Below the pieces are notes generated by a model that ran no database searches, was not told the origin of the DNA, and worked only from the letters and a program-made list of their open reading frames with translations. From IMG/VR virus record IMGVR_UViG_3300042884_000695, positions 1 to 23,406 of that record: a DNA stretch of 23,406 bases; one strand, written 5' to 3'. Positions within the stretch are counted from its first letter, which is position 1. The number at the start of each line of letters is the position of its first letter. A program made the position numbers and the translations under genes. The stretch comes from a virus. Of this stretch, positions 3,912 through 20,543 are shown one piece after another.

Positions 3912-4291
3912 CATTTTGGCGCAAATGGTCTGGCTTGCCCTGGAAACTTGGCGCAGACCCACGGGACGGTCGAGCAGCCTGCTGCTTCAGGACTGCCCAG
4001 GCGGTACGTCAGGAGCTGGGAATGTCCTGGCCGGCAGATCGTATGCGGAGCTGGTACACGGCGGCTGAGCGGGGGCACTGGAGGGAGCTGGACGAAGACT
4101 GGACCGAGCTGACCGAACCTATCGAGAAGCCTGAGGCCGGCGCCTTGATCCGCTTCGACCGGGGAGATGGTTCCTTTGGCGTTGGAGTGCTTCCTAATGC
4201 AGACACATTTATTACCGTCAGGCATTATGGCTGCTTAGTTGCCGGTCCCGTCAACGCTTGCGGCTCACTTAAACTTTTTCGCTTGCTGTGA
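3908..4291 (+). CDS. NlpC/P60-like tail protein (gpK position), possibly inactive
   Basis: This 127-residue protein uses a TTG start overlapping the previous stop by four bases (TTGA). The N-terminal part, with GADPRDGRAACC (Cys25/Cys26) ahead of a helix ending in ELG, fits the nucleophile region of NlpC/P60 cysteine peptidases. The later GALIRF strand followed by GVGV, a turn and DTFITV fits the beta hairpin that normally carries the HVGI histidine. Here Phe90 occupies that place, so the Cys-His pair looks broken unless His106 substitutes. NlpC proteins at this position, such as lambda gpK, act at the tail tip and may cut host peptidoglycan. It overlaps the J-like gene by GTGA. The fold call is by motif only. 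Confidence 0.5.
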   Translation: MTFWRKWSGLPWKLGADPRDGRAACCFRTAQAVRQELGMSWPADRMRSWYTAAERGHWRELDEDWTELTEPIEKPEAGALIRFDRGDGSFGVGVLPNADTFITVRHYGCLVAGPVNACGSLKLFRLL

Positions 4292-7200
4292 TTAAGTTAC
4301 TCCCTTACGAAAAACGCCTTGCTCAAATTCTGGGCGTATCTGAAGATGCGTACCGGGAATGGAAGGCAATTACGCTAAGGGAGTCAGTAGAGCGGCCTGC
4401 TGCTGCCGAAGGGCCAGTATGCGGGCCATTGGTTCCTGTACTTGTTAATTTAGCGATCTCAGTTGGCGTATCGCTACTGTCTTCGCTGCTGTTTCCAGCA
4501 CGGCAACAGTCGAGAATCACTACTACCAGAAAAAGCGGTACTCCAACAACTAACAACCAACGATCTTCGCCGCGCTTCGGGTTTGACTCGATGCAGGAAC
4601 CCGCCAGGATCGGGCAGTTCGTTCCTGTAGTAATCGCCAAGCGCGAGAACAACCTTGGCGGCGTTCGTGTCGCAATGCCGCTGCTCTGGTCGCAGATGCT
4701 GGCAAATAACGGCTCAGTAATGTTTCGTGGCATTTTTCTTGGCGGCACCGCTGGAATGCCGGCAGATGCTTGGGATCAAAGGGGTTGGGCGTTTGGGAAT
4801 AACACGCTTGGCGCTTATGCTTACACCGGCACAGCGTTAAGTCAGGGAGCGCGATATTCCATATACTTTGCGCCTAACGGTGGGCGGATTAACTCAACCC
4901 AACTCATTGCCGGCAGGAGCGCAAACAGAGATCCCGGCAACTCGCAAAACAGTGGCGGCCAAGATGTATTTGCGCTTGAAACCACAAGCGGTCAATACAA
5001 GACAGCATTTTGCATGAGCGAAACGCCATCAACCAGTACAGCGTTTGGCCTGTACGGTTGGTGCCCTAACGCGATGATGCACAGGCAACCAGTAACAATA
5101 CAGCCAACCATCGTAGCAAGGATTGACGATGACGACAAGGTACGCACTGATGACGATGCAGCGGCCTTGGTAGAGGCATGGAAAGGTAAATTCTATTGGT
5201 CAATGCGAAGCGGGTTGCGCAAGCGCAAAGCCAGTGGTTCTTCGACGTGGACGACTCCTGCGACCGGCGACTATCAAATCGTTACACAAAGCGTTGCTGT
5301 TGGCGATTCGCTGCTCTACGCGATCAACGGCACTACTGATGCTAAGACAAAGATCCGATTTAATACCACCAATTCACGGGTCATAGATAACGATGCGGAG
5401 TCCGAGGCGGAAATGGGCGGCGTTGCGGCTGCTGTTGCCGGCGTGCAAAACTCGGCAGATTCTGCCTTGATCCCCAATGAACTTTACAGAATAGGCAGTT
5501 GCTGGGCAATACTCGAAGAGAGAATATCGGAAAGCCCTAGCGAGTCGATCTTCATTAGCGACTCAGAGCAAGAGCCTGTTGGCGATGGCAACAGCATGGA
5601 ATATGTCTTTACGGTAGTACAAGCCGGAAGCGTGCAATTCATTGGTCCTAAGTTTCTGTTTCCAGACGAATCCGGCACTACGATTCTGCCGCCAGAGTAC
5701 AACCCAAGCAATGATCTTGCCAACTTGCAAAGCGGTACGCAAGGCCGTTACAGGCTGTGCTCTCAAGCTGCGCAAATCTTTCGCATGGCAATAGCATCAT
5801 TTAGCGCAGTGAGAGAGTTTAGGGTTTGCGAAATTATCATTAAGTCAAGAGTTGGTATAACCGTAAATGGTATAACAGGTTTCAGGTCATGCCCAAAAGT
5901 GCAGACCATCAACAGTCGCGCAGGCCAAAACCAAGTCGGCAAAACGGCGAATGGCGTTATATCGGTTTCTCGCTACGATAGCGGCGGAGATTCTATCACT
6001 ACAAAGACACGTCGCTATAGCTGTTTCAACTTGCAATACAGCCTGGACCGTGGCGCAACATGGACGCAGTTCCCTGACGTTTTTGCAGTCGCCGGCATCA
6101 GCGGTGAAGAGATCCACAACTACTTAAGGATCGTTCTTCCATCTAACAAGCGATGGACGATTAGAACTGTGCCGGTTTCTAGTTGGGAAGTTCGCCAAAG
6201 TGCTATTACTCGAATCCTGGTGCTCGATACCAACAGCGGTGAAGAAGTGGAGTCTACTGCTGCTGGCGTCACCGTAATATCAACTGGCTACATCATAAAC
6301 CCAACAAATAGCAAGAACCGCAAAATCTCACAGCTTGAGCCTAAGTTTGACATTGGCCTTGGCTGGGCCGATCCTGAGTACGAATCCATGATTGGCGGTT
6401 ACGCCAGGTTCGATGAAGCATTCCCGTACGAAAATATCCAATCAAGCGTAAGCAATAGCCCAGAGCATCAAATCACGCAAGTAAATTACTATGGCGATCT
6501 TGATATGACGCCATCTTACGAGTCCCTGGCGCCTGTAGGCGTGAACATCTCAGCATCGCCTGAGTTCAACAGTCTTTCGGGTTTTAGCGGCTTCTGCAAT
6601 AACGGCCATCAAATGCCTAGGCTATTAAATAACGACACAGAAGGATCAAGCCATTTATGGCCAGACTGGTTGCGCGAAGTAATGACGAACCCCGAACTAG
6701 GCGCCTTCCCTCGCACGCAACTGGCGCAAATTGACAGGCCGAGCTTTCAGGAGGCAGCGCAATGGTGCCAAGACCGGGGATATTTTTACGATAAGGTCGA
6801 AGATGAACCGCTAAACATTCTGAGCTGGGCTTCAGAGATTGCATTAGCGCATCTGCTTAAGTTGGTTCGACTTGGCGGCGTTTACTATCTTAAGAAAGCG
6901 ATTGAGTTTGATGCGCCACTTAAAGTAGAAGCGCAATTTAATAACGGCAACATTGAAGAGGGATCTTTTAGGCTAAACACTATTGACTATGCAACAAGGC
7001 AGCCTTTTATAGTACAAGTCAAATGGAGAGAAGAATCAACAGGAGCAGAGTCGCCGCTGTTTGCCCGTGAGCGCGTGGCAATGGTGAGAGAGGCAAGTAC
7101 CAGCGTAAACGCTCCAGTCAAAGAGCTTGACTTATCGGAGTGGTGTACTAACTACAGGCAAGCTATTGATGCTGCCTGCTACTACATTCGATTCGTAACC

Positions 7201-7659
7201 ATACACGATCATCAAATTAGCTTTACAACATCGCCAGACGTACTAGCAGCGCAACTGCGCTCTAGCGGCTTTTTCATAATGGACTTTGACGCTGTTAGCT
7301 ATAGCACTTCCTTCCAAGGCTTTATACAGAGAGACGGAACTATCGTCACCATTCGCCCATGGCTTCTGCCGGCAGCAGACGGCTATTATGATGCGATCAC
7401 TTGGGACATGAGCAACGACCCACAAGAAGAGCAAATCGTTGTACTCGACGGCCTTGCTTCGCCAACAGAGCGATTCTTTGCGATAAGAAACGCTATCACA
7501 AAACCCCGCGTCTACGAAATAAAGAAAGTGAATATCGACGGCGAAGGAGTTATCACCATTGAAGCGTTCCACCATCCCACCGACGCAAACGGTTATAGTC
7601 TGCTTGGGGTAAACTGGACTACATACGAGACTGACGCGAATTGGGTGATTGAGCTATGA
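4288..7659 (+). CDS. Tail tip attachment / host specificity protein (gpJ-like)
   Basis: This 1123-residue protein uses a GTG start overlapping the previous stop (GTGA). Residues 47-70 are a strongly hydrophobic helix, followed by a Ser/Thr/Asn-rich linker and an ARIGQFVPVVIAKRE segment. This arrangement (hydrophobic helix, then 'n-G-xx-vPvvyG') is typical of lambda gpI/gpJ-type tip proteins. The rest is long and beta-rich, with a C-terminal segment around EIKKVNIDGEGVITIEA like the end of the phage tail hub domain. Members form the central tail tip, contact the host receptor and close the tail tube. Length, position after an NlpC-like gene, and the N-terminal signature make this fairly secure. 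The C-terminus lacks an obvious fibre repeat; receptor binding may be shared with the downstream adhesin genes. Confidence 0.72.
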   Translation: MIKLLPYEKRLAQILGVSEDAYREWKAITLRESVERPAAAEGPVCGPLVPVLVNLAISVGVSLLSSLLFPARQQSRITTTRKSGTPTTNNQRSSPRFGFDSMQEPARIGQFVPVVIAKRENNLGGVRVAMPLLWSQMLANNGSVMFRGIFLGGTAGMPADAWDQRGWAFGNNTLGAYAYTGTALSQGARYSIYFAPNGGRINSTQLIAGRSANRDPGNSQNSGGQDVFALETTSGQYKTAFCMSETPSTSTAFGLYGWCPNAMMHRQPVTIQPTIVARIDDDDKVRTDDDAAALVEAWKGKFYWSMRSGLRKRKASGSSTWTTPATGDYQIVTQSVAVGDSLLYAINGTTDAKTKIRFNTTNSRVIDNDAESEAEMGGVAAAVAGVQNSADSALIPNELYRIGSCWAILEERISESPSESIFISDSEQEPVGDGNSMEYVFTVVQAGSVQFIGPKFLFPDESGTTILPPEYNPSNDLANLQSGTQGRYRLCSQAAQIFRMAIASFSAVREFRVCEIIIKSRVGITVNGITGFRSCPKVQTINSRAGQNQVGKTANGVISVSRYDSGGDSITTKTRRYSCFNLQYSLDRGATWTQFPDVFAVAGISGEEIHNYLRIVLPSNKRWTIRTVPVSSWEVRQSAITRILVLDTNSGEEVESTAAGVTVISTGYIINPTNSKNRKISQLEPKFDIGLGWADPEYESMIGGYARFDEAFPYENIQSSVSNSPEHQITQVNYYGDLDMTPSYESLAPVGVNISASPEFNSLSGFSGFCNNGHQMPRLLNNDTEGSSHLWPDWLREVMTNPELGAFPRTQLAQIDRPSFQEAAQWCQDRGYFYDKVEDEPLNILSWASEIALAHLLKLVRLGGVYYLKKAIEFDAPLKVEAQFNNGNIEEGSFRLNTIDYATRQPFIVQVKWREESTGAESPLFARERVAMVREASTSVNAPVKELDLSEWCTNYRQAIDAACYYIRFVTIHDHQISFTTSPDVLAAQLRSSGFFIMDFDAVSYSTSFQGFIQRDGTIVTIRPWLLPAADGYYDAITWDMSNDPQEEQIVVLDGLASPTERFFAIRNAITKPRVYEIKKVNIDGEGVITIEAFHHPTDANGYSLLGVNWTTYETDANWVIEL

Positions 7660-12124: not shown

Positions 12125-12805
12125 ATGGCAACCACCATCCATCCCGCAACCGGCGTCGAGTATTACACCGATGGCCCTTTTGAAGGCCAAAGTGTTGCGC
12201 TATTTGTCAATGTCAACGCTAGCAATGGCCAGATCAACAACCCTGCCGGCGACTGGTGGCCAAGGCCCAATGGCGAGCCTCACGATTTTAGCGAGGAATT
12301 TTACAGGATAGTGCCATTTGAAGCGGCGCCTTTTGACCCCGAATTGCGCGTTATTGACGAAGCGGCCAGCGGTCGAGCACTGAAACCTGCCGTGCCAAAG
12401 CCCCCTGCTGGGCATCCTCAGGGCACCTACGAGGAAACTCAAGTCACCAAGCGCCGCAGCATGGCTGGTCTAAAGGGGCTGGCTAAAGGGTACTGTGAAA
12501 GGTTTAACCGGGAAATATGGGAACGACTACCGCAAGATGTTTGGTCTATCGAAAAACTGGCTTTTGCAAAAAATGAGATTGCAAAAGGCAATAGCCTGGA
12601 CCATTTTGTAGAAGCAGTACAAGAGGACGAGTCTCTTAGGGTAAAACTTAGGGCTGCGTCCTTCCACAACGATGCCCGCCTTGCTAAGCTTTACGCAAAA
12701 ATCGAAGAGGCCGGGGAAGATGGCAACATTGACGACTGGCCATTTAGCAAGATGCAAGACGGCAGCGAAGGCTACACCGGCTGGGTAAATGGAATTGAGG
12801 AATGA
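12125..12805 (+). CDS. Unknown protein, possible fibre-assembly chaperone
   Basis: This 226-residue protein starts five bases after the previous stop. The N-terminal 80 residues are rich in Trp, Pro and aromatic residues (GDWWPRPNG, then EEFYRIVPFE and FDPELRVID). The C-terminal 130 residues are helical and charged, ending in a DGSEGYTGWVNG segment. The size and the place between fibre genes and a tip adhesin fit a tail-fibre assembly protein, but I find no sequence signature that proves it. It lacks membrane or signal segments. Its end overlaps the next gene's ATG by 17 bases, consistent with coupled translation. Confidence 0.6.
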   Translation: MATTIHPATGVEYYTDGPFEGQSVALFVNVNASNGQINNPAGDWWPRPNGEPHDFSEEFYRIVPFEAAPFDPELRVIDEAASGRALKPAVPKPPAGHPQGTYEETQVTKRRSMAGLKGLAKGYCERFNREIWERLPQDVWSIEKLAFAKNEIAKGNSLDHFVEAVQEDESLRVKLRAASFHNDARLAKLYAKIEEAGEDGNIDDWPFSKMQDGSEGYTGWVNGIEE

Positions 12806-13697
12806 TGGATTTCGCCTGCCCCCACCATGGATTGCGCCTGCTGCCGGGAAAACAGATCGAGAGGTGCGGCCAGTGATTTACGTGAGCCGGAGAAGGCCCC
12901 CCAGCGGCGGCGGTAAAATCATCGCCACTGGGGGGTCGCTTGTATTTGAGATAGCTGGGTACCGGGTACACGTTTTTAACGTGCCAGGTTCCTACGCCTT
13001 TGACGTAACGGTTGGCGGCGCCGACCTTGAATACTTAATTCGTGGCGCCGGTGCCGGTGGCTCCCGATCATTCTGGGGCGGTGGTGGTGGCGGAGGCGGC
13101 GGTCATCGAAGTTCCGTACCCGGTGAACCCTCTGGCGGCGGATCGTCCGCCGAGCCGCGACTGATCGTAACCCCGCAACAGTACATCGTAGTTGTAGGAG
13201 CCAAGGGCATCGGTGCCCCGGCGTCAGGCTCGTTTTTTGGCACGCCAGGCGGAAATAGCTCGTTTGCCGGGAAAGTGGCGCTGGGAGGCGGCCCCGGCGG
13301 TGTCGCGGGCACATTCGGGTCTGGCGGCGGGACGAATTATGCGTCTAATCCTGGCCAGGGCGCCGGCCCGCCTGGCACCGGCACGGCAGGCCAGGGCCGC
13401 AACGGCGGCGCAAGTTACGACCGAGGCGCCGTTTATGGCGGCGGCGGTGGTGGCGGCGCGGCTCAACCCGGCAACGGCCAAGTGTCGGGCCTAGATGGTC
13501 GAGGCGGCGACGGCCTAACATCATCGATTACTGGCGCATCCGTACCCGGCTGCGGCGGTGGTGGCAGCGGCGGATTTGGTGGTGGTGGCGTAGGGGGCCT
13601 GGGCAGCAACGGCCCCGGCGGCGGCGGCAAAGGCAGCGTCGCAGGCGCCGCACAGAATGGGCAGGATGGCGAAGTAATCATTCGCTATCCGATCTAA
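12789..13697 (+). CDS. Glycine-rich tail tip adhesin
   Basis: This 302-residue protein opens with a basic linker and a VFNVPGSYAFDV strand, followed by DLEYLIRGAGAGG. That is the entry into a glycine-rich domain with long runs of Gly, many short GGGG and GxGG blocks and few bulky residues, ending with GQDGEVIIRYPI. The 'veylv-x-AGGGGG ... G-x-x-G-x-v-i-ir-y' frame is that of glycine-rich phage receptor-binding tips, which are thought to fold as packed polyglycine II helices. It is the best candidate for a receptor-contacting tip here. The start is uncertain: ATG 12789 overlaps the previous gene, while TTG 12795 and GTG 12873 (after AGAGG) are alternatives. The GC-rich repeats invite slippage and recombination. 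Confidence 0.78.
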   Translation: MELRNDGFRLPPPWIAPAAGKTDREVRPVIYVSRRRPPSGGGKIIATGGSLVFEIAGYRVHVFNVPGSYAFDVTVGGADLEYLIRGAGAGGSRSFWGGGGGGGGGHRSSVPGEPSGGGSSAEPRLIVTPQQYIVVVGAKGIGAPASGSFFGTPGGNSSFAGKVALGGGPGGVAGTFGSGGGTNYASNPGQGAGPPGTGTAGQGRNGGASYDRGAVYGGGGGGGAAQPGNGQVSGLDGRGGDGLTSSITGASVPGCGGGGSGGFGGGGVGGLGSNGPGGGGKGSVAGAAQNGQDGEVIIRYPI

Positions 13698-13715: not shown

Positions 13716-14042
13716 TTGAAACAACAACCGCAACCCAAGGTAATCACAGTTGGATTAATTGGCTCAATTGGCGCCATAGCGGTGTTGCTGGCGTTGCTAT
13801 TTTTAGGGCACAAATATAAAGATGATTGTCTTGCTGCTGGCAAAGATTTTGAGCAATGCTGGGAAAAGGGACTGACAATAGCTGGAATGAATACTGGAGG
13901 GCCGCTTAGTGCAGCAGTAATTTTTGGCTACATCGTCGGCCAGTTTGGCAAAGAAAAAGAAAAAGCTGAAAAATATCAAGAGGGTTATTGGAAGTACAAC
14001 CCAGAGCTTCGCCGTGATAACGAGTCACCGGAGGCACCCTAA
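13716..14042 (+). CDS. Two-helix membrane protein, candidate holin
   Basis: This 108-residue protein has two hydrophobic helices, about residues 9-31 and 53-76, separated by a short loop with Cys38 and Cys48. It ends in a charged tail (GKEKEKAEKYQEGYWKY). Size, helix number and position at the end of the tail operon fit a class II holin, but no endolysin lies beside it. The start is unusual: an in-frame TAA at 13707 forces TTG 13716. A different-frame ATG at 13697 overlaps the adhesin stop and opens a separate 40-residue reading frame. The real start may therefore differ. It converges on the minus-strand operon 20 bases away. Confidence 0.5.
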   Translation: MKQQPQPKVITVGLIGSIGAIAVLLALLFLGHKYKDDCLAAGKDFEQCWEKGLTIAGMNTGGPLSAAVIFGYIVGQFGKEKEKAEKYQEGYWKYNPELRRDNESPEAP

Positions 14043-14062: not shown

Positions 14063-14743
14063 TCAGGCTTCAGCGGCCTGATCGAGCAGGGGTGTACCCG
14101 CTTGCTCAGGGGCGGCCCGCTTGCCGCGTGGAATGACGGCCTCAACCACTCCCGTAGTGGTCAATAGGATCTGACCGTCAGCGGGATACTCGACCGCAAA
14201 CACCTCGCCAGCGACTGCGCCCACTCGATTAACGGCGAGCTGGCTGACCAGCAGCACGCCTTGACCAGTGACCCGAGCGCGAGTCTCGCCGGCATGGGAT
14301 CGACCGTTACCGGAGGTAGATTCGCTCTCTTCGATGACGCCCGTAACCTTGAGCCATTCCTCATTGAAGGCAGACTTCTGGAATCGTTGCTGGCCGGTCC
14401 TGGTAATGGAAACATAGCCGGCATGAAAACCGATCGCGTTATGCTTCCAACCTTCGGCCTTCTTGGCGTTGTAGAAGTCCAGCAGCTCTTGGCCGACAAG
14501 GCGAGCGGGAAGCTCAGGGGCTTCTTCGAGAGTAGCCTCAGCGGGCTCGGAAGACAAAGCACGGTAGGGCTGGTCTTCATGGTGGGGGCCTTCGTCGCCG
14601 TCTTCATCCTCGTCGGGATCTTCGCCACCATCGACAAGGGGCTCTTGGTCGTAATCAGTGTCGATAAGGTTTTCTTCAGCAACGTCGGTAGGACCGACTT
14701 CAGTAATCTCAGCCTCAGGGACTTTCTTGGTGCGGGTTGCCAT
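14063..14743 (-). CDS. cyAbrB-like regulator with acidic N-terminal extension
   Basis: This is a 226-residue protein and the last gene of the minus-strand operon. Residues about 80-136 match the cyAbrB N-terminal domain pattern: L-x-G-QELL, a helix, A-x-GFHAGYVS-x-T-x-G-x-x-R, then a helix ending in G. Residues 155-196, with ARVTGQGVLLVSQ, a 'v-G-avaGEVFAVEY' strand pair and a closing 'ILLTT', resemble the AbrB-like 'v-q-gnGnlligk ... pGdefei' half. Cyanobacterial cyAbrB proteins regulate carbon, nitrogen and stress genes and are usually about 130 residues. This one adds about 75 acidic residues at the N-terminus (DEDEDGDEG core) that could mimic DNA or bind a partner. No Shine-Dalgarno is seen; a good promoter sits upstream. 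The assignment is by motif, not alignment. Confidence 0.6.
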   Translation of the reverse strand: MATRTKKVPEAEITEVGPTDVAEENLIDTDYDQEPLVDGGEDPDEDEDGDEGPHHEDQPYRALSSEPAEATLEEAPELPARLVGQELLDFYNAKKAEGWKHNAIGFHAGYVSITRTGQQRFQKSAFNEEWLKVTGVIEESESTSGNGRSHAGETRARVTGQGVLLVSQLAVNRVGAVAGEVFAVEYPADGQILLTTTGVVEAVIPRGKRAAPEQAGTPLLDQAAEA

Positions 14744-14774
14744 TGGAAGGAAGGGCGAATGCGTGACAAGTGAA

Positions 14775-14803
14775 ACTGTAGCACGCTATCGAACGCGCAT
14801 CAA
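14775..14803 (-). promoter_or_regulatory. Promoter for the cyAbrB-like gene
   Basis: On the minus strand, TTGATG (14803-14798) is followed after 17 bases by TACAGT (14780-14775), preceded by TGC to form the extended -10 box TGCTACAGT. The start codon lies 31 bases beyond the -10 box. This is the most complete sigma-70 type match in the minus-strand operon. It would let the regulator be made apart from the recombination genes. Confidence 0.55.
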
Positions 14804-15682
14804 TGGGCTCAGCGCGTTAAGAGCAGCACCAAAGACCGGATGGCCGCCAGATGCCGCCTTTCTTTGGTGGTGAAGCGCAAGGCCACCGGCAAACTGAAGC
14901 CATCCCTGGTCAAGGTCGGGCCGGTTCCAGGTTTTTTCGCTGACGCCATCGACGCTCAAGCCGAAATTGATCCCGCGCTCAACGCGCAGGCCGACTACGG
15001 CTTCGACACCAAAAGCGTAAGAACCTTGTTGCATTTGCCAGCCACCTCGCACCTTGAAAGTGGACTCCTTAACCTTGCCGGCTTCGGCGTCAACTTTTGT
15101 AAGAAGTTCGCAGATGCTGGCAAGGATCTCATCGTCTGGAGCGTATTCACACAAACGCTTATAGCGCTCGGCAAAACGGTCCGGCTGATTAGTCTTCCAA
15201 TCGCACACGCTCAGGATCCCATCAACTTCGGCAATGAGATCAGGAGTGAAGCCGTAGCAGCCGCCAGGGTGAATCATCGGCTCTTCGATGACATACACCT
15301 TGCCAATACGCGGCCTAACGTAGTCATACCAAAGAGAATGGATGATGGCAGCTTCCGTGTCTCTGTGAAAATCAGTGCTAATTTTCTCCTGCTCGAAAGA
15401 GCCAAGTGACAAGCCAACCATGCCATGCAGCCTTGTGCCAATGTCTGCGCGGATGTCTCGAACTCGATCCATGAAATACTCGGCGCCCATATCGGTAAGC
15501 CCCTTGCGCATCAAGGATTGCTTCCAATGCTCTTTTGGAAAGTCCTTGCCGCCAGCAAGCTCGATGATATGCGAAGATGATGGTACTTCGATCTGCTCTT
15601 GTGGAGTGCGATAGAAATACTTGTGGTCTTTATCTCTAAAAAAAACTCCCGACTGAGCCGGGAGTGGTTGCAGTTCAGGCAT
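14786..15682 (-). CDS. PD-(D/E)XK recombination nuclease (RecB/Cas4-like)
   Basis: This 298-residue protein carries the nuclease core motifs: TRLHG (His86), GFTPDL (Asp148), CDWKTN (Asp161, Lys163) and QQGSY (Gln218-Tyr222), the QxxxY motif of RecB and Cas4-type nucleases. The N-terminal HKYF...VPSSSHII resembles the 'H-x-Y-x ... vPSvt-x-il' start of phage nucleases of this class. It should chew DNA ends to give single strands for the ERF and ssDNA-binding proteins encoded just upstream. The frame stays open to 15919, but that stretch lies wholly over the upstream gene and is low-quality sequence, so I place the start at ATG 15682, five bases after the upstream stop. A terminator-like hairpin lies inside the first 15 codons. 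Confidence 0.75.
   Translation of the reverse strand: MPELQPLPAQSGVFFRDKDHKYFYRTPQEQIEVPSSSHIIELAGGKDFPKEHWKQSLMRKGLTDMGAEYFMDRVRDIRADIGTRLHGMVGLSLGSFEQEKISTDFHRDTEAAIIHSLWYDYVRPRIGKVYVIEEPMIHPGGCYGFTPDLIAEVDGILSVCDWKTNQPDRFAERYKRLCEYAPDDEILASICELLTKVDAEAGKVKESTFKVRGGWQMQQGSYAFGVEAVVGLRVERGINFGLSVDGVSEKTWNRPDLDQGWLQFAGGLALHHQRKAASGGHPVFGAALNALSPLMRVR
15638..15665 (-). terminator. Intrinsic terminator inside the nuclease gene start
   Basis: On the minus strand ACTCCCG (15665-15659), a 7-base loop and CGGGAGT (15651-15645) form a perfect stem followed by a run of T down to 15638. It lies about 17 bases into the nuclease coding region. It may reduce nuclease expression relative to the ssDNA-binding and ERF genes upstream, or be masked by translating ribosomes. 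Confidence 0.5.
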
Positions 15683-15687
15683 CAGGA

Positions 15688-16335
15688 TCAGAAGCCGGGG
15701 GGAAGGTGCTGGGAAGGCATGAGGCCCGCAGCGGCCTGGCCATGGATCGCGCCAGGCATGGGCTGGACGGGCGCTGGAGGGGCAACAGGCGTAGGCGCTT
15801 GGCCTTGTGCCGGGGGCTGGGCGTAACCCTGTGGGGCCTGCTGCTGATAGGCCGGTTGCGGTTGCTGAGGCTGTGCCTGATCGACAAAGCCAGCAGGCAT
15901 CGGCACGTGGGCTGGCCAACCCTGTGGAGCCGCCTGAGGCTGTGTTGGCTGTGGCGCTTGCGCGTAACCCTGGGGAGCCGCCTGTGGCTGTGCGTACTGA
16001 GGTTGCTGAGGCGCTTGTTGTTGGGGCGCTTGGGCATATCCCTGCGCAGCCTGTTGGCGTGCAAGGGCGCTATTTTGTGTCTCGGTCAAGGTCGAAACAC
16101 TGCCGGACAAGCACGGCTTCTTGTCGCCGGGATTAACTGGTTGCAGGTAAAGCCCAACGTCGAGCTTAATGCACGGCTGACCGTTGTAGTCCAACTCGTA
16201 TTGGCCTGCGTTAAACGCAGCATTTGCTTCTTGTAGCAATTCCCAAGAAAGCTCAAACTTGCCTTTGTAGTCAGGCTGGTTTGCAGCGCTCTTGCGATCA
16301 TTGACCCAAAAAGCGAGTCTGTTGCGGGAAGCCAT
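15688..16335 (-). CDS. Probable ssDNA-binding protein with Gln/Pro/Ala-rich tail
   Basis: This 215-residue protein lies between an annealing protein gene and a nuclease gene. Residues 1-85 form a small folded region: FWVNDRKSAANQPDYKGKFEL, a helix, then a CIKLDVGLYLQPVN strand. The 'W-x-N-x-k-x-x-x-x-x-PdY-x-G' start occurs in small phage proteins of recombination modules. An OB-type ssDNA-binding role is inferred from this and from context. Residues 90-215 are disordered and low in charge, with repeated QGYAQ and PQAAPQG units, much like the flexible tail of an SSB, but the end (HLPPGF) is not acidic. The tail carries a PQGWP...MPxG motif shared with the ERF protein. The start codon overlaps the ERF stop by one base (TGATG). 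Confidence 0.5.
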   Translation of the reverse strand: MASRNRLAFWVNDRKSAANQPDYKGKFELSWELLQEANAAFNAGQYELDYNGQPCIKLDVGLYLQPVNPGDKKPCLSGSVSTLTETQNSALARQQAAQGYAQAPQQQAPQQPQYAQPQAAPQGYAQAPQPTQPQAAPQGWPAHVPMPAGFVDQAQPQQPQPAYQQQAPQGYAQPPAQGQAPTPVAPPAPVQPMPGAIHGQAAAGLMPSQHLPPGF

Positions 16336-17063
16336 CAGGAAGGTTGCGAAAGGACGGGAAGAGGTTGGACGGGATTAACCATGCCAGGCGGCATGGTTGA
16401 AATGACTGGCCAACCCTGGGGTGTAGTGGCGTAGTTGGTCGCCATCGGCGGCTGTGGTTGGTAGCCGGTCGTCAACGGCTGCGAAAAGACTGCCTGAGGG
16501 TGTTGCACTTGCTGACCCGGCGCCGGCCAAGAGGCGGGAGCAGGCAGGCCAGGTAGTTGCGCTGCGGCGGGAGGATTGTTGCCATAGACAACCCCGTTGC
16601 CATCGTCTTCGTCTTTTTCAGAACAAAGAGCTAACAACGCATAAAGATTGAAGCGAACACCGTACCTGACATGCCCAGCTACCTTGTGCATGGTAGTCAG
16701 ATCGGTAACGGGAAAGTCTGAAAACAGCTCTTCGCTACCATCCTTGAAGCCGACAGTTGTACGTAAACGCCAAAACGGCTCTTCGTACACGAATTGCGAG
16801 TAAATCACAATTCCCTGGTCAAGCAGGGCCGGCTCAACTGCGCGAAGCAGTTTTGGTAGGCCGGTGTACTCTGATTTTAGATAAGTGTTTTTTTGATCCC
16901 AGCTAAGATCGCCAAAGTCTGCCTTGGCAGCGGCGATTGCTTCAAGCAGGGAGGGTCTAGGAGGCGCAATGAGCGGGATTGGTGCAATGGGTTGCGCCAT
17001 TGGTGGCGGCGCTTGCGTTGGCGGTGCTACCGCTTGCGGTGGAGCTGTTGAGGTTCGTGTCAT
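16335..17063 (-). CDS. erf: ERF-family single-strand annealing protein
   Basis: This 242-residue protein has a Pro/Ala-rich N-terminal leader (1-35), then an ERF-type core at residues 38-150: LLEAIAAAKADFG, a YLKSEYTGLPKLLRAVEPALLDQGI segment, the VYEEPFWRLRTTVGFKDGSEE strands and a VRYGVRFNLYALLAL end. ERF proteins bind single strands and pair homologous DNA in phage recombination. The acidic DEDDGNG follows, and residues 160-242 are a flexible Pro/Gln-rich tail that includes a PQGWP motif also found in the next protein. It is the first gene after a 41-bp repeat that carries a promoter. The annealing family call is confident; ERF is favoured over RecT by the core pattern. Confidence 0.72.
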   Translation of the reverse strand: MTRTSTAPPQAVAPPTQAPPPMAQPIAPIPLIAPPRPSLLEAIAAAKADFGDLSWDQKNTYLKSEYTGLPKLLRAVEPALLDQGIVIYSQFVYEEPFWRLRTTVGFKDGSEELFSDFPVTDLTTMHKVAGHVRYGVRFNLYALLALCSEKDEDDGNGVVYGNNPPAAAQLPGLPAPASWPAPGQQVQHPQAVFSQPLTTGYQPQPPMATNYATTPQGWPVISTMPPGMVNPVQPLPVLSQPS

Positions 17064-17511: not shown

Positions 17512-17552
17512 ACTAAAAGAGTGTAGCATGAAGCGGAGCAAATTAGCCAGGC
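17512..17552 (-). repeat. 41-bp repeat, copy 2, with promoter
   Basis: This is the partner of the 17078-17118 copy. It carries the same gene end (GGCTAA), the same extended -10 box TGCTACACT (17528-17520) and the same CTTTTAGT start region. It drives the acidic-protein gene that starts at 17486. Four mismatches are spread over the upstream half, while the -10 box and its surroundings are identical in both copies. Confidence 0.7.
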
Positions 17553-18037
17553 GGTAAAGGTTCAAGAGCAGCAGGCAACCTCTCCGCAACTTTGCGAAGA
17601 ATAGCCAGAGGCGTAATTCGCATCAAAAGCCGAGTCTCCCAATTTTCTTCGAGTACAGCTATAATGCCTTGAACTGCGCCAATCATGCCATCTTTCGTTC
17701 CTTGAATGTATGCTGCCTCAGGGTCTGGCTTTTTGTTATTAACAAAGCCCATAAGCGCGTATCTGAGCTTGTCGGCTTCGTGCTGCTCCCCCCAGCTAGG
17801 CGGCGCCTTTTCAGTTCCCGCAGTGTACTTAAGTGCGGCAAGCTCAGCGATAAGGCGTCGCGGTCCACCTTCTTTCACAGTTGGCGCAATGTAGCCACCA
17901 GCACCACCGACGCCAGTGCCTACAGGCATGTTGTCAATGATCTTACGGAAGCGAAGCATGTAATCCATGCCTGGGTTTTCCAGGTGAACAAGCATCAAGC
18001 GATAAATAAAATCCAGGTGTTCTTTGTCAGTGGTCAT
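17543..18037 (-). CDS. Protein of unknown function
   Basis: This 164-residue protein starts at ATG 18037. A GTG at 18058 would add seven residues, but the ATG gives a cleaner N-terminus (MTTDKEHLDFIYRLML). I recognise no family. The sequence is mainly helical, with a glycine-rich loop (GTGVGGAGGY) near residue 43, a central GGPRRLIAELAALKY helix and a C-terminal Leu-rich helix. It lies directly downstream of the primase-helicase gene and ends inside the 41-bp repeat. It may be a replication accessory protein, from context only. Its leader shares TCCAACAGAAAA with the next gene's leader, so the two could be regulated alike. Confidence 0.62.
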   Translation of the reverse strand: MTTDKEHLDFIYRLMLVHLENPGMDYMLRFRKIIDNMPVGTGVGGAGGYIAPTVKEGGPRRLIAELAALKYTAGTEKAPPSWGEQHEADKLRYALMGFVNNKKPDPEAAYIQGTKDGMIGAVQGIIAVLEENWETRLLMRITPLAILRKVAERLPAALEPLPPG

Positions 18038-18095
18038 GGCACGTTTTCTGTTGGACACCTAAGCATTGCACGTTGACCCTTTCTTGTCAAGCCCC

Positions 18096-20543
18096 TTAAT
18101 CCGGGAACCTCCCAAGCGCTACAAAAGTTTGCGTTTTGCCTTTGACACGCCACTCGCCAAGCTCCATCGAAACCAGTTGATCCATTGCAGCCTTGACCTC
18201 AGACACCTTCATGTCTTTACGATGCTTAATCGGAACACAGCTCGAAAAGAAGCGCGATGCAGTAACGCCATCGTTCGCTTTTGCAAAGTTATGTATCCTT
18301 CTGTTAATATCGAAAGCGCCATGGCGTTGCATCTGCGATTCTTGCTGCTCCACAATCGCGTAACTTTGTAACAAGTCAACCAAGATCACTGACCTAGCTA
18401 AAGTGTTTTTGGAAAGAAACAGCTCATCTACACCCTCTTCGCCGGCAGCAACGCGGCATAGGTGCATGGCAAGCGCAACTTGCAGAACATAGCCGAGCCT
18501 TTTGCCTAGCACAGCTCTTTGAGATTCGAGCGCTACCATTTTTGACTTGTCGTAAGTGTCGCGTGATAACAGAACAAACAAATCAACCGCTTCCTTTTCA
18601 AGTCTTAAAACAAGCGGCGCTACCTCCATGCAGCGCAAATAAAAGTTCTCTAGGCATTGCTCAGCCATGTGTACTGCCATCAACTCTTCCGGCGAGCGAA
18701 AAAAGTTAGGCTCTACATAATCGTCAATCAATGGGACCATCAAACACCGAGCAAACAAGCCAGCATCATCGCCTTCTTCGACCATCTTGCGAAATACGCC
18801 AGGCTGAACGCCGCCAAGCAACGCATTCTGGACCTTGCCTTCGACCGGCTTTGCTCTGCGACCAACACGAAGCGATGGATCAACGATGCCATCAAATAAG
18901 CAAAGGAATGTTTCCTTGCCCTTGCCTTTGCCATGGGCTTTGTATTCATCAAAGTTGCCAAGAATGGACTTAATCTCTTCAGAATAAATGAAAGTCCCAA
19001 GACCAACGCTATGGTTGTCGCCTAAAATCCTGCCAAACTCTTCGGTCGAAAAGTTTGTAAGACATGTCATAAATGGCCTGGGTTCTTCTGGGCGAACGTT
19101 TTTAGCCATGCCACCATACCTAGCGTCGTAAGCGGCTTGAGCATTGTCGCTCAAGAATTTGTAATGATTGTGTATAGGTTTCAGGCGAGAATAGCAAAGG
19201 TGCTGCATTATTGGACTCTTGCCACTGCCGGAAGGGCCAGACAAAAGCAGCCAGATTACTGGTTGCTTAACAAACAAGCCATCACCTGCATCAACTCGAT
19301 GGCCCGCCTTGAGCACGCCGGCAGCGGCGGTGAGCACAACAGATACAGCCGTCAGCGGATCGCAGGCGAGGTTGGCTGTTATCGTTTCAACAGCATTGCA
19401 AATCGACTCCGGCAAGTAGTCAGCTAGCTTAACTGCCTTGCGCTTGTCTGCTATGCCTTGCCTTGCAGCAATGGCGGCACTAGCGCCCAGGGCTTCACTT
19501 TCTACCTGCCGGTCGTCTTCGAGCGAATCCCAAATCCTGCGCACGTCAAACGCCGAAGCATTATGAGCGCTAGCAATATCCGCTACACCGGTCTGAATGT
19601 CAGCGCTAGAACCTGGACCGGTTTCGTAAAACTCCTGTAGGGCTTTCTTGATTGCGCCATAACTAACGCGATTAAGGTCAGGCAGCTTTGCTCCTGATGC
19701 CCCCTTTATCGCAACTGCTATTAAAGAGCTGAGTTGTTCTGGTGGCATATCATCAACGCTTCCGCCGTCTGGCACTTCATAGATTGACTCAGCAGGAATA
19801 ACCCGTAAGTCAATCTCAGCCAGCTTGGCAGCGGCCAGGTTCCTGGCGCCCATCTTTCTGCCGGCAACATCATTGTCAATGATCGAATAGACGGTCTTAA
19901 TCCCAACCGCAGCAAGCCCAGCATACCTGGCTCTACAACTTGTTTCGTCTCGCTGGTGGCCAGGGTGTGTAATTGCAGCGATCCCGTTAGCGCGTAAAAT
20001 CTCAACGCATTTTTCCCCTTCTACCTCTAGCGCTGACGTACTGCTGCCTGGGTCCAGTGATCCATAAAAAGGCCAGGTTTCAGGTCCAGCGCCTGTATTC
20101 CAGCGCCCATTAAACAAGAATTGTGGCTCAAATCTCTTCTTCTTACCGCCTTCATAATCATAGCGAATTGTACGCAAGTCTTCCCTGTATTGATACGTTG
20201 TCGTCAGGCAATGTCCTTCCTTGTCTACTGCCGGCACGGGGACTGTGGCTGGCTGTGGCTGGCAGGCTGGCAGCACATGGCCACTGGCGTTCTCCTGCTC
20301 GACGTGGATCACGAATATGGCCGCATCACGGCTGTCATCCCTGGACTCTCCAGTGTAGGCCCATTGGCGGTTGGCGGCGTCGGTCAGTACCTGGCCCTTC
20401 CTTAGCCGCTGTGGGGGCCCCAGGCTCTTGCCGTGATGGCAAACAACCATCCCACCATCTTGCCTGACGCGACAATCGCCGTCCTTTGTTCGACCGCAGA
20501 TCGGGCAGGGGTTACGCTCGCTGGACTGGTTCCAACGCTCCAT
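18096..20543 (-). CDS. Primase-helicase: zinc finger, TOPRIM and DUF3987-type ATPase
   Basis: This 815-residue protein is the first gene of the minus-strand operon. Residues 13-36 hold a zinc-binding set (CPIC, Cys24, CHH). Residues 171-265 form a TOPRIM-like domain: VEGEK (Glu175) and IIDNDVAG (Asp223, Asp225), as in phage primases. Residues 375-610 form a P-loop ATPase of DUF3987 type with Walker A GPSGSGKS (436-443), a TFIYSEEI Walker B-like strand and a GLFARCLMVP arm. The C-terminal 50 residues look like a winged helix. Zinc finger plus TOPRIM suggests primer synthesis or initiation, and the ATPase suggests DNA unwinding; the pairing is common in phage replisomes. A good AGGA lies nine bases before the ATG. 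No DNA polymerase gene is seen in the window. Confidence 0.78.
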   Translation of the reverse strand: MERWNQSSERNPCPICGRTKDGDCRVRQDGGMVVCHHGKSLGPPQRLRKGQVLTDAANRQWAYTGESRDDSRDAAIFVIHVEQENASGHVLPACQPQPATVPVPAVDKEGHCLTTTYQYREDLRTIRYDYEGGKKKRFEPQFLFNGRWNTGAGPETWPFYGSLDPGSSTSALEVEGEKCVEILRANGIAAITHPGHQRDETSCRARYAGLAAVGIKTVYSIIDNDVAGRKMGARNLAAAKLAEIDLRVIPAESIYEVPDGGSVDDMPPEQLSSLIAVAIKGASGAKLPDLNRVSYGAIKKALQEFYETGPGSSADIQTGVADIASAHNASAFDVRRIWDSLEDDRQVESEALGASAAIAARQGIADKRKAVKLADYLPESICNAVETITANLACDPLTAVSVVLTAAAGVLKAGHRVDAGDGLFVKQPVIWLLLSGPSGSGKSPIMQHLCYSRLKPIHNHYKFLSDNAQAAYDARYGGMAKNVRPEEPRPFMTCLTNFSTEEFGRILGDNHSVGLGTFIYSEEIKSILGNFDEYKAHGKGKGKETFLCLFDGIVDPSLRVGRRAKPVEGKVQNALLGGVQPGVFRKMVEEGDDAGLFARCLMVPLIDDYVEPNFFRSPEELMAVHMAEQCLENFYLRCMEVAPLVLRLEKEAVDLFVLLSRDTYDKSKMVALESQRAVLGKRLGYVLQVALAMHLCRVAAGEEGVDELFLSKNTLARSVILVDLLQSYAIVEQQESQMQRHGAFDINRRIHNFAKANDGVTASRFFSSCVPIKHRKDMKVSEVKAAMDQLVSMELGEWRVKGKTQTFVALGRFPD

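Follow-up and report, generated by a model that had tools for sequence, protein, structure and literature searches.

A strongly diverged cyAbrB homologue with an acidic N-terminal arm at the end of a cyanophage recombination operon

Introduction

The cyAbrB proteins serve cyanobacteria as global nucleoid regulators, and their handling by phages seems to be undescribed in the papers that we searched. The question is raised by a viral DNA of 23,406 nucleotides (IMG/VR record IMGVR_UViG_3300042884_000695, positions 1 to 23,406; here called the window), in which one gene had been described from the letters alone as coding for a cyAbrB-like regulator with an added acidic extension. Is its product a genuine cyAbrB, and what might it do for a phage? 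We report that this cyanophage protein is a genuine but distant and strongly diverged homologue of cyAbrB.

The gene (14063-14743, minus strand) begins with an ATG at 14743 and codes for 226 amino acids plus stop. Six homologues were found in viral contigs; no close relative turned up among GTDB genomes, GenBank phages or plasmids. The protein consists of an acidic arm predicted to be disordered (residues 1-80; 14504-14743, minus strand), a cyAbrB N-terminal domain (residues 81-137; 14333-14503, minus), a linker followed by an AbrB-like (putatively swapped-hairpin) C-terminal domain (residues 147-206; 14126-14305, minus) and a tail of about neutral charge (residues 207-226; 14066-14125, minus).

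The evidence points to cyanobacteria as hosts. The tail protein of the window (4288-7659) matches only the Synechococcus siphophages S-LBS1, S-CBS1 and S-CBS3, and the top matches of the portal protein of a sister contig are nine cyanophage records, S-2L first. The terminase search gave nothing informative on the host.

Homology to cyAbrB

Searches of Pfam, NCBIfam and PHROGs with the product of 14063-14743 gave no significant match, nor did a sequence search of the PDB. The curated profile PF14250 ('AbrB-like'), to which the cyAbrBs belong, gave no match up to E 10, and a direct PF14250 search of the record was also negative. As these curated profiles are silent, the case for homology is built on custom profiles, on tblastn and on the fold.

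A custom HMM was built from 101 cellular cyAbrB sequences, with no viral ones. It matches the window protein in a single colinear alignment covering both domains (residues 82-187), with a score of 35.9 bits and a single-sequence E value of 3.9e-13, and the best of 2000 shuffled sequences reached 10.8 bits. Most of the score comes from the N-terminal domain (21.4 bits alone); the C-terminal domain alone scores 8.0 bits, inside the shuffle range. In a tblastn search of 292 cyanobacterial genomes with residues 78-226, cyAbrB ORFs align over the two domains (identity about 30-33%, best E 3.6e-7 per genome). Comparison of the window family with the cyAbrB family by hhalign gave an E value of 7.5e-6 and a probability of 84%. 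The two-domain pattern that the sequence-only reading had placed at residues 80-136 and 155-196 is thus recovered, and its expectation of a match to a cyAbrB profile is borne out by the custom HMM but not by PF14250.

A chance resemblance between unrelated proteins is hardly credible. It could draw on the empty Pfam and NCBIfam results, on the lack of a significant match in PHROGs, on the negative PF14250 search of the record, on the C-terminal score and on a Foldseek list for the PDB that has no match below 0.001; against it, the HMM, tblastn, hhalign and the Foldseek search of viral models agree, the two domains are colinear, and the shuffled sequences stay far below the full-length score.

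Like the cellular proteins (cyAbrB1 Sll0359 and cyAbrB2 Sll0822), the window protein has an N-terminal domain, a Gly/Ser linker and an AbrB-like C-terminal domain in this order, and the alignment contains the invariant residues G84, L87, G109, Y110, R120, F126 and G135. It differs from them in its low identity (about 20-33%), in the loss of the conserved cysteine, in having fewer basic residues and in its acidic arm of 80 residues, which is absent from the cellular cyAbrBs examined. Because it is too diverged for the PF14250 model, we class it as a diverged homologue, not as a plain member of the family.

Predicted fold

For residues 76-206, AlphaFold2 predicts a confident N-terminal domain, with the order H-H-E-E-H and a pLDDT of about 80-93. 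In the C-terminal domain the order of helices and strands fits AbrB, but the confidence is low (pLDDT 45-61). The full-length model, too poor in the C-terminal domain, was used for the disorder of the arm only. In the Foldseek search of the PDB, Bacillus subtilis SpoVT is on top, with AbrB and MazE domains lower; all these matches are weak (best E 0.38). The AbrB-type swapped-hairpin fold remains putative for the C-terminal part: the secondary-structure order and the rank of SpoVT fit it, but the model confidence is low and the E values are weak.

Searches of the BFVD viral models gave as the best match an annotated 'AbrB family transcriptional regulator' of the uncultured marine phage MedDCM-OCT-S39-C11 (A0A6S4PMF7; E 8.9e-7, 119 alignment columns, 24% identity). 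With 118 amino acids in total, this protein has no room for an arm. The second match (TM 0.80 over its 52 residues) is gp074 of Prochlorococcus phage P-TIM68 (L021:2998-3153), annotated as hypothetical, which consists of the cyAbrB N-terminal domain alone and has no acidic arm. Synechococcus phage B23 gp246 (L022:2977-3402), also annotated as hypothetical, combines the cyAbrB N-terminal domain with an unrecognised C-terminal part, likewise with no acidic arm; a close relative of it aligns without gaps to the N-terminal domain of the window protein.

Position in the recombination operon

The gene lies at the end of a leftward operon (all genes on the minus strand). The operon begins with a primase/helicase-like protein (DUF3987; 18096-20543; Pfam and PHROGs matches), followed by an Erf-like single-strand annealing protein (16335-17063; PHROG 2324 and 155, with PF04404 just under the cut-off), by a gene for 215 amino acids with a Gln/Pro-rich tail (15688-16335) and by an exonuclease (14786-15682; PHROG 298). 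The exonuclease ORF is open to 15919, and several homologues start at the equivalent of 15682. The 15688-16335 gene is conserved in the operon and has no convincing family match; that it codes for the phage SSB is a guess.

The cyAbrB-like gene follows the exonuclease in all six IMG/VR relatives, and the complete order from primase through Erf, the 15688-type gene and exonuclease to the cyAbrB-like gene is found in the four contigs that extend far enough. The convergent gene on the other side (13716-14042) is also present in all of these contigs. Both the phage setting and the place as last gene of the recombination operon, as first proposed, are thus shared by viral sister contigs. Two other segments of the window (17543-18058 and 12125-13697) have low identity to the sister contigs or are absent from them, while adjacent genes are more than 90 per cent identical.

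A promoter of its own, which the sequence-only reading had assigned to the gene, finds no support. The 42-bp gap between the exonuclease stop and the start codon (14744-14785, minus strand) is conserved in relatives. A scan gave no sigma70-like match in it that reached the threshold, and the strongest -10 candidate, TACAGT, reads TACGCT or TACACT in the relatives and so is not conserved. It is simpler to assume transcription by read-through from the operon.

This position could suit an accessory factor of the phage Erf, exonuclease and primase machinery that has no relation to the host cyAbrB and might, for instance, act as a chaperone of DNA or of these enzymes. The gene stands directly after Erf and exonuclease here and in the sister contigs, and acidic tails are typical of single-stranded-DNA-binding proteins. 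We consider such a role improbable, since the homology is to a transcription and nucleoid regulator and the other phage cyAbrBs examined sit elsewhere, for example between terminase and portal.

Charge and the conserved cysteine

The acidic arm, earlier placed at residues 11-75, is confirmed: residues 1-81 contain 33% Asp/Glu, with a net charge of -22, and are predicted to be disordered (pLDDT about 40 in the full-length model). There are about three sequence alleles of the arm, all of them acidic, and its net charge lies between -19 and -24 in all seven sequences (window and six homologues). Every allele stays acidic, so charge rather than sequence seems to matter.

The whole protein has a net charge of -24. 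Linker and C-terminal domain together have a charge of 0, compared with a median of +2 in the cellular proteins and +3 in those of other viruses. The protein lacks basic residues that cyAbrB1-type proteins conserve at positions 92, 104, 106, 125, 172, 189 and 190, whereas R148, R155, R157 and R173 of the linker and first strand are retained. Absence of the motif GRKHIHL was considered as proof of lost DNA binding and rejected, as the picocyanobacterial cyAbrB paralogues lack it too. Given these paralogues and the retained arginines, loss of DNA binding does not follow.

The protein might be a DNA-binding regulator or nucleoid protein of the phage itself, its AbrB-like domain binding phage (or host) DNA and its arm tuning or autoinhibiting this activity. 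Membership of the AbrB-fold family, the arginines just mentioned and the strong purifying selection on the C-terminal domain (see below) speak for this, as do the canonical phage cyAbrBs, common in IMG/VR and net positive in their C-terminal part, which suggest that phages probably carry DNA-binding versions. The about neutral linker and C-terminal domain, the strongly negative charge of the whole protein and the many missing basic positions speak against it, and we regard it as a serious but somewhat doubtful possibility, ranking only slightly below the interference discussed later.

The single cysteine of the cyAbrB N-terminal domain is replaced by Ala108. This cysteine is common without being strictly defining: it occurs in 99 of the 101 cellular cyAbrBs and in 36 of the 44 viral ones. 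Glutathionylation of the single cysteine of AbrB2 alters its oligomerization and DNA binding (PMC4264147); with alanine at this position, the window protein would not be subject to such a redox switch.

Allele exchange and selection

Compared with contigs L005 and L010, the exonuclease of the window is 97.6% identical; beside it, the difference reaches 60% in the arm and amounts to 30-47% in the N-terminal domain segment and to 0-20% in the C-terminal domain. The exchanged block corresponds to residues ~99-146 (14306-14449, minus strand), is swapped between two alleles and differs along most of its extent by the 30-47% of nucleotides just given. The alleles of the arm and of the N-terminal domain are combined differently from phage to phage, which indicates recombination. 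The pN/pS ratio is 0.077 for the C-terminal domain, 0.32 for the exchanged segment and 0.89 for the arm: the C-terminal domain is under strong purifying selection, and arm and N-terminal domain are swapped as allelic blocks. Such exchange next to a near-identical exonuclease is consistent with surfaces turned towards a partner that varies.

Possible interference with host cyAbrB

In cyanobacteria, cyAbrB2 is spread over long low-GC tracts, is present on 80 of 125 insertion sequences and has a mainly repressive effect; cyAbrB1 is one of its interaction partners (PMC11368403). On these grounds it resembles H-NS as a target. Several antagonists of H-NS are known: T7 gp5.5 binds the oligomerization site, T4 Arn acts by DNA mimicry, and truncated H-NS is a further example (PMC8501957). 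By analogy, the window protein may interfere with the host cyAbrB through mixed oligomers or through its acidic arm, a reading that we favour tentatively and rate somewhat short of probable. The protein would be produced alongside the proteins for replication and recombination and would enter host cyAbrB oligomers through its two conserved domains; the arm would then make the contacts of this mixed complex with DNA weaker, or displace them. Silencing would be lifted and DNA freed for phage transcription and replication, as with the H-NS antagonists of other phages. The likeness to these antagonists (PMC8501957) lies only in the proposed action on a nucleoid silencer, by oligomers or an acidic surface; there is no homology, and hosts and folds differ.

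The lost cyAbrB1-type basic positions, the constantly acidic arm and the replaced cysteine can be counted for interference, as sequence features that suggest it; so can the two-domain matches by HMM, tblastn and hhalign, the fold matches, the exchange of arm and N-terminal domain as blocks and the low pN/pS of the C-terminal domain. Against it stand the low confidence of the C-terminal model, the retained basic residues, the two cellular cyAbrBs that likewise lack the cysteine, and the fact that phages often show allelic mosaicism, with variation in other genes here as well. It is the analogy that places interference with the host cyAbrB before an independent DNA-binding regulator; the computation does not decide between them. 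A fuller scenario, which we hold to be rather unlikely as a whole, is that a captured cyAbrB became a counter-silencer that poisons host cyAbrB nucleoprotein complexes by means of the added arm, with N-terminal domain and arm exchanged among phages to suit different hosts. If true, it would be a cyanobacterial counterpart of the H-NS antagonists.

cyAbrBs in other viruses

Scanning IMG/VR with a picocyanobacterial-type cyAbrB query (L123 type) gave 97 matches, of which 80 were kept (L147-L226). About 97 other viral stretches thus encode a canonical cyAbrB. These proteins are phage-borne and have the same two domains as the window protein, but they are 48-76% identical to the host-type cyAbrB, lie in another part of the tree and have no acidic N-terminal arm. 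Scans of IMG/VR with a filamentous cyAbrB1 alignment or with the second picocyanobacterial type gave no matches. No PHROGs profile recognises the viral canonical cyAbrBs tested, and we found no papers describing them.

In the tree, the window family forms a separate clade with support of 100/100 and a very long stem. Its grouping with picocyanobacterial paralogues (99/80) was rejected as proof of origin, the stem being 4.5 changes per site long and flagged for long-branch joining. A phage cyAbrB as such is thus not unique; the remodelled form with an acidic N-terminal arm is, as far as we searched. Together, a remodelled cyAbrB in a replication operon and plainer cyAbrBs widespread in cyanophages make it testable whether cyAbrBs silence incoming DNA and whether phages counter this.

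Several of the viral cyAbrB genes inspected have clear phage surroundings. In one lineage (e.g. L226 and L186), the viral cyAbrB gene lies between the terminase large subunit and the portal, and in L152 it lies near psbA (gene names are our own reading of these sequences). Long acidic C-terminal tails occur in two of the 44 viral cyAbrBs examined (L147:4001-4483, net charge -16, and L152:4001-4492, net charge -19), a possible parallel to the acidic N-terminal arm of the window protein. The psbA-like (D1) gene close to the L152 cyAbrB (L152:1962-3733) is apparently split, with an HNH-like ORF alongside.
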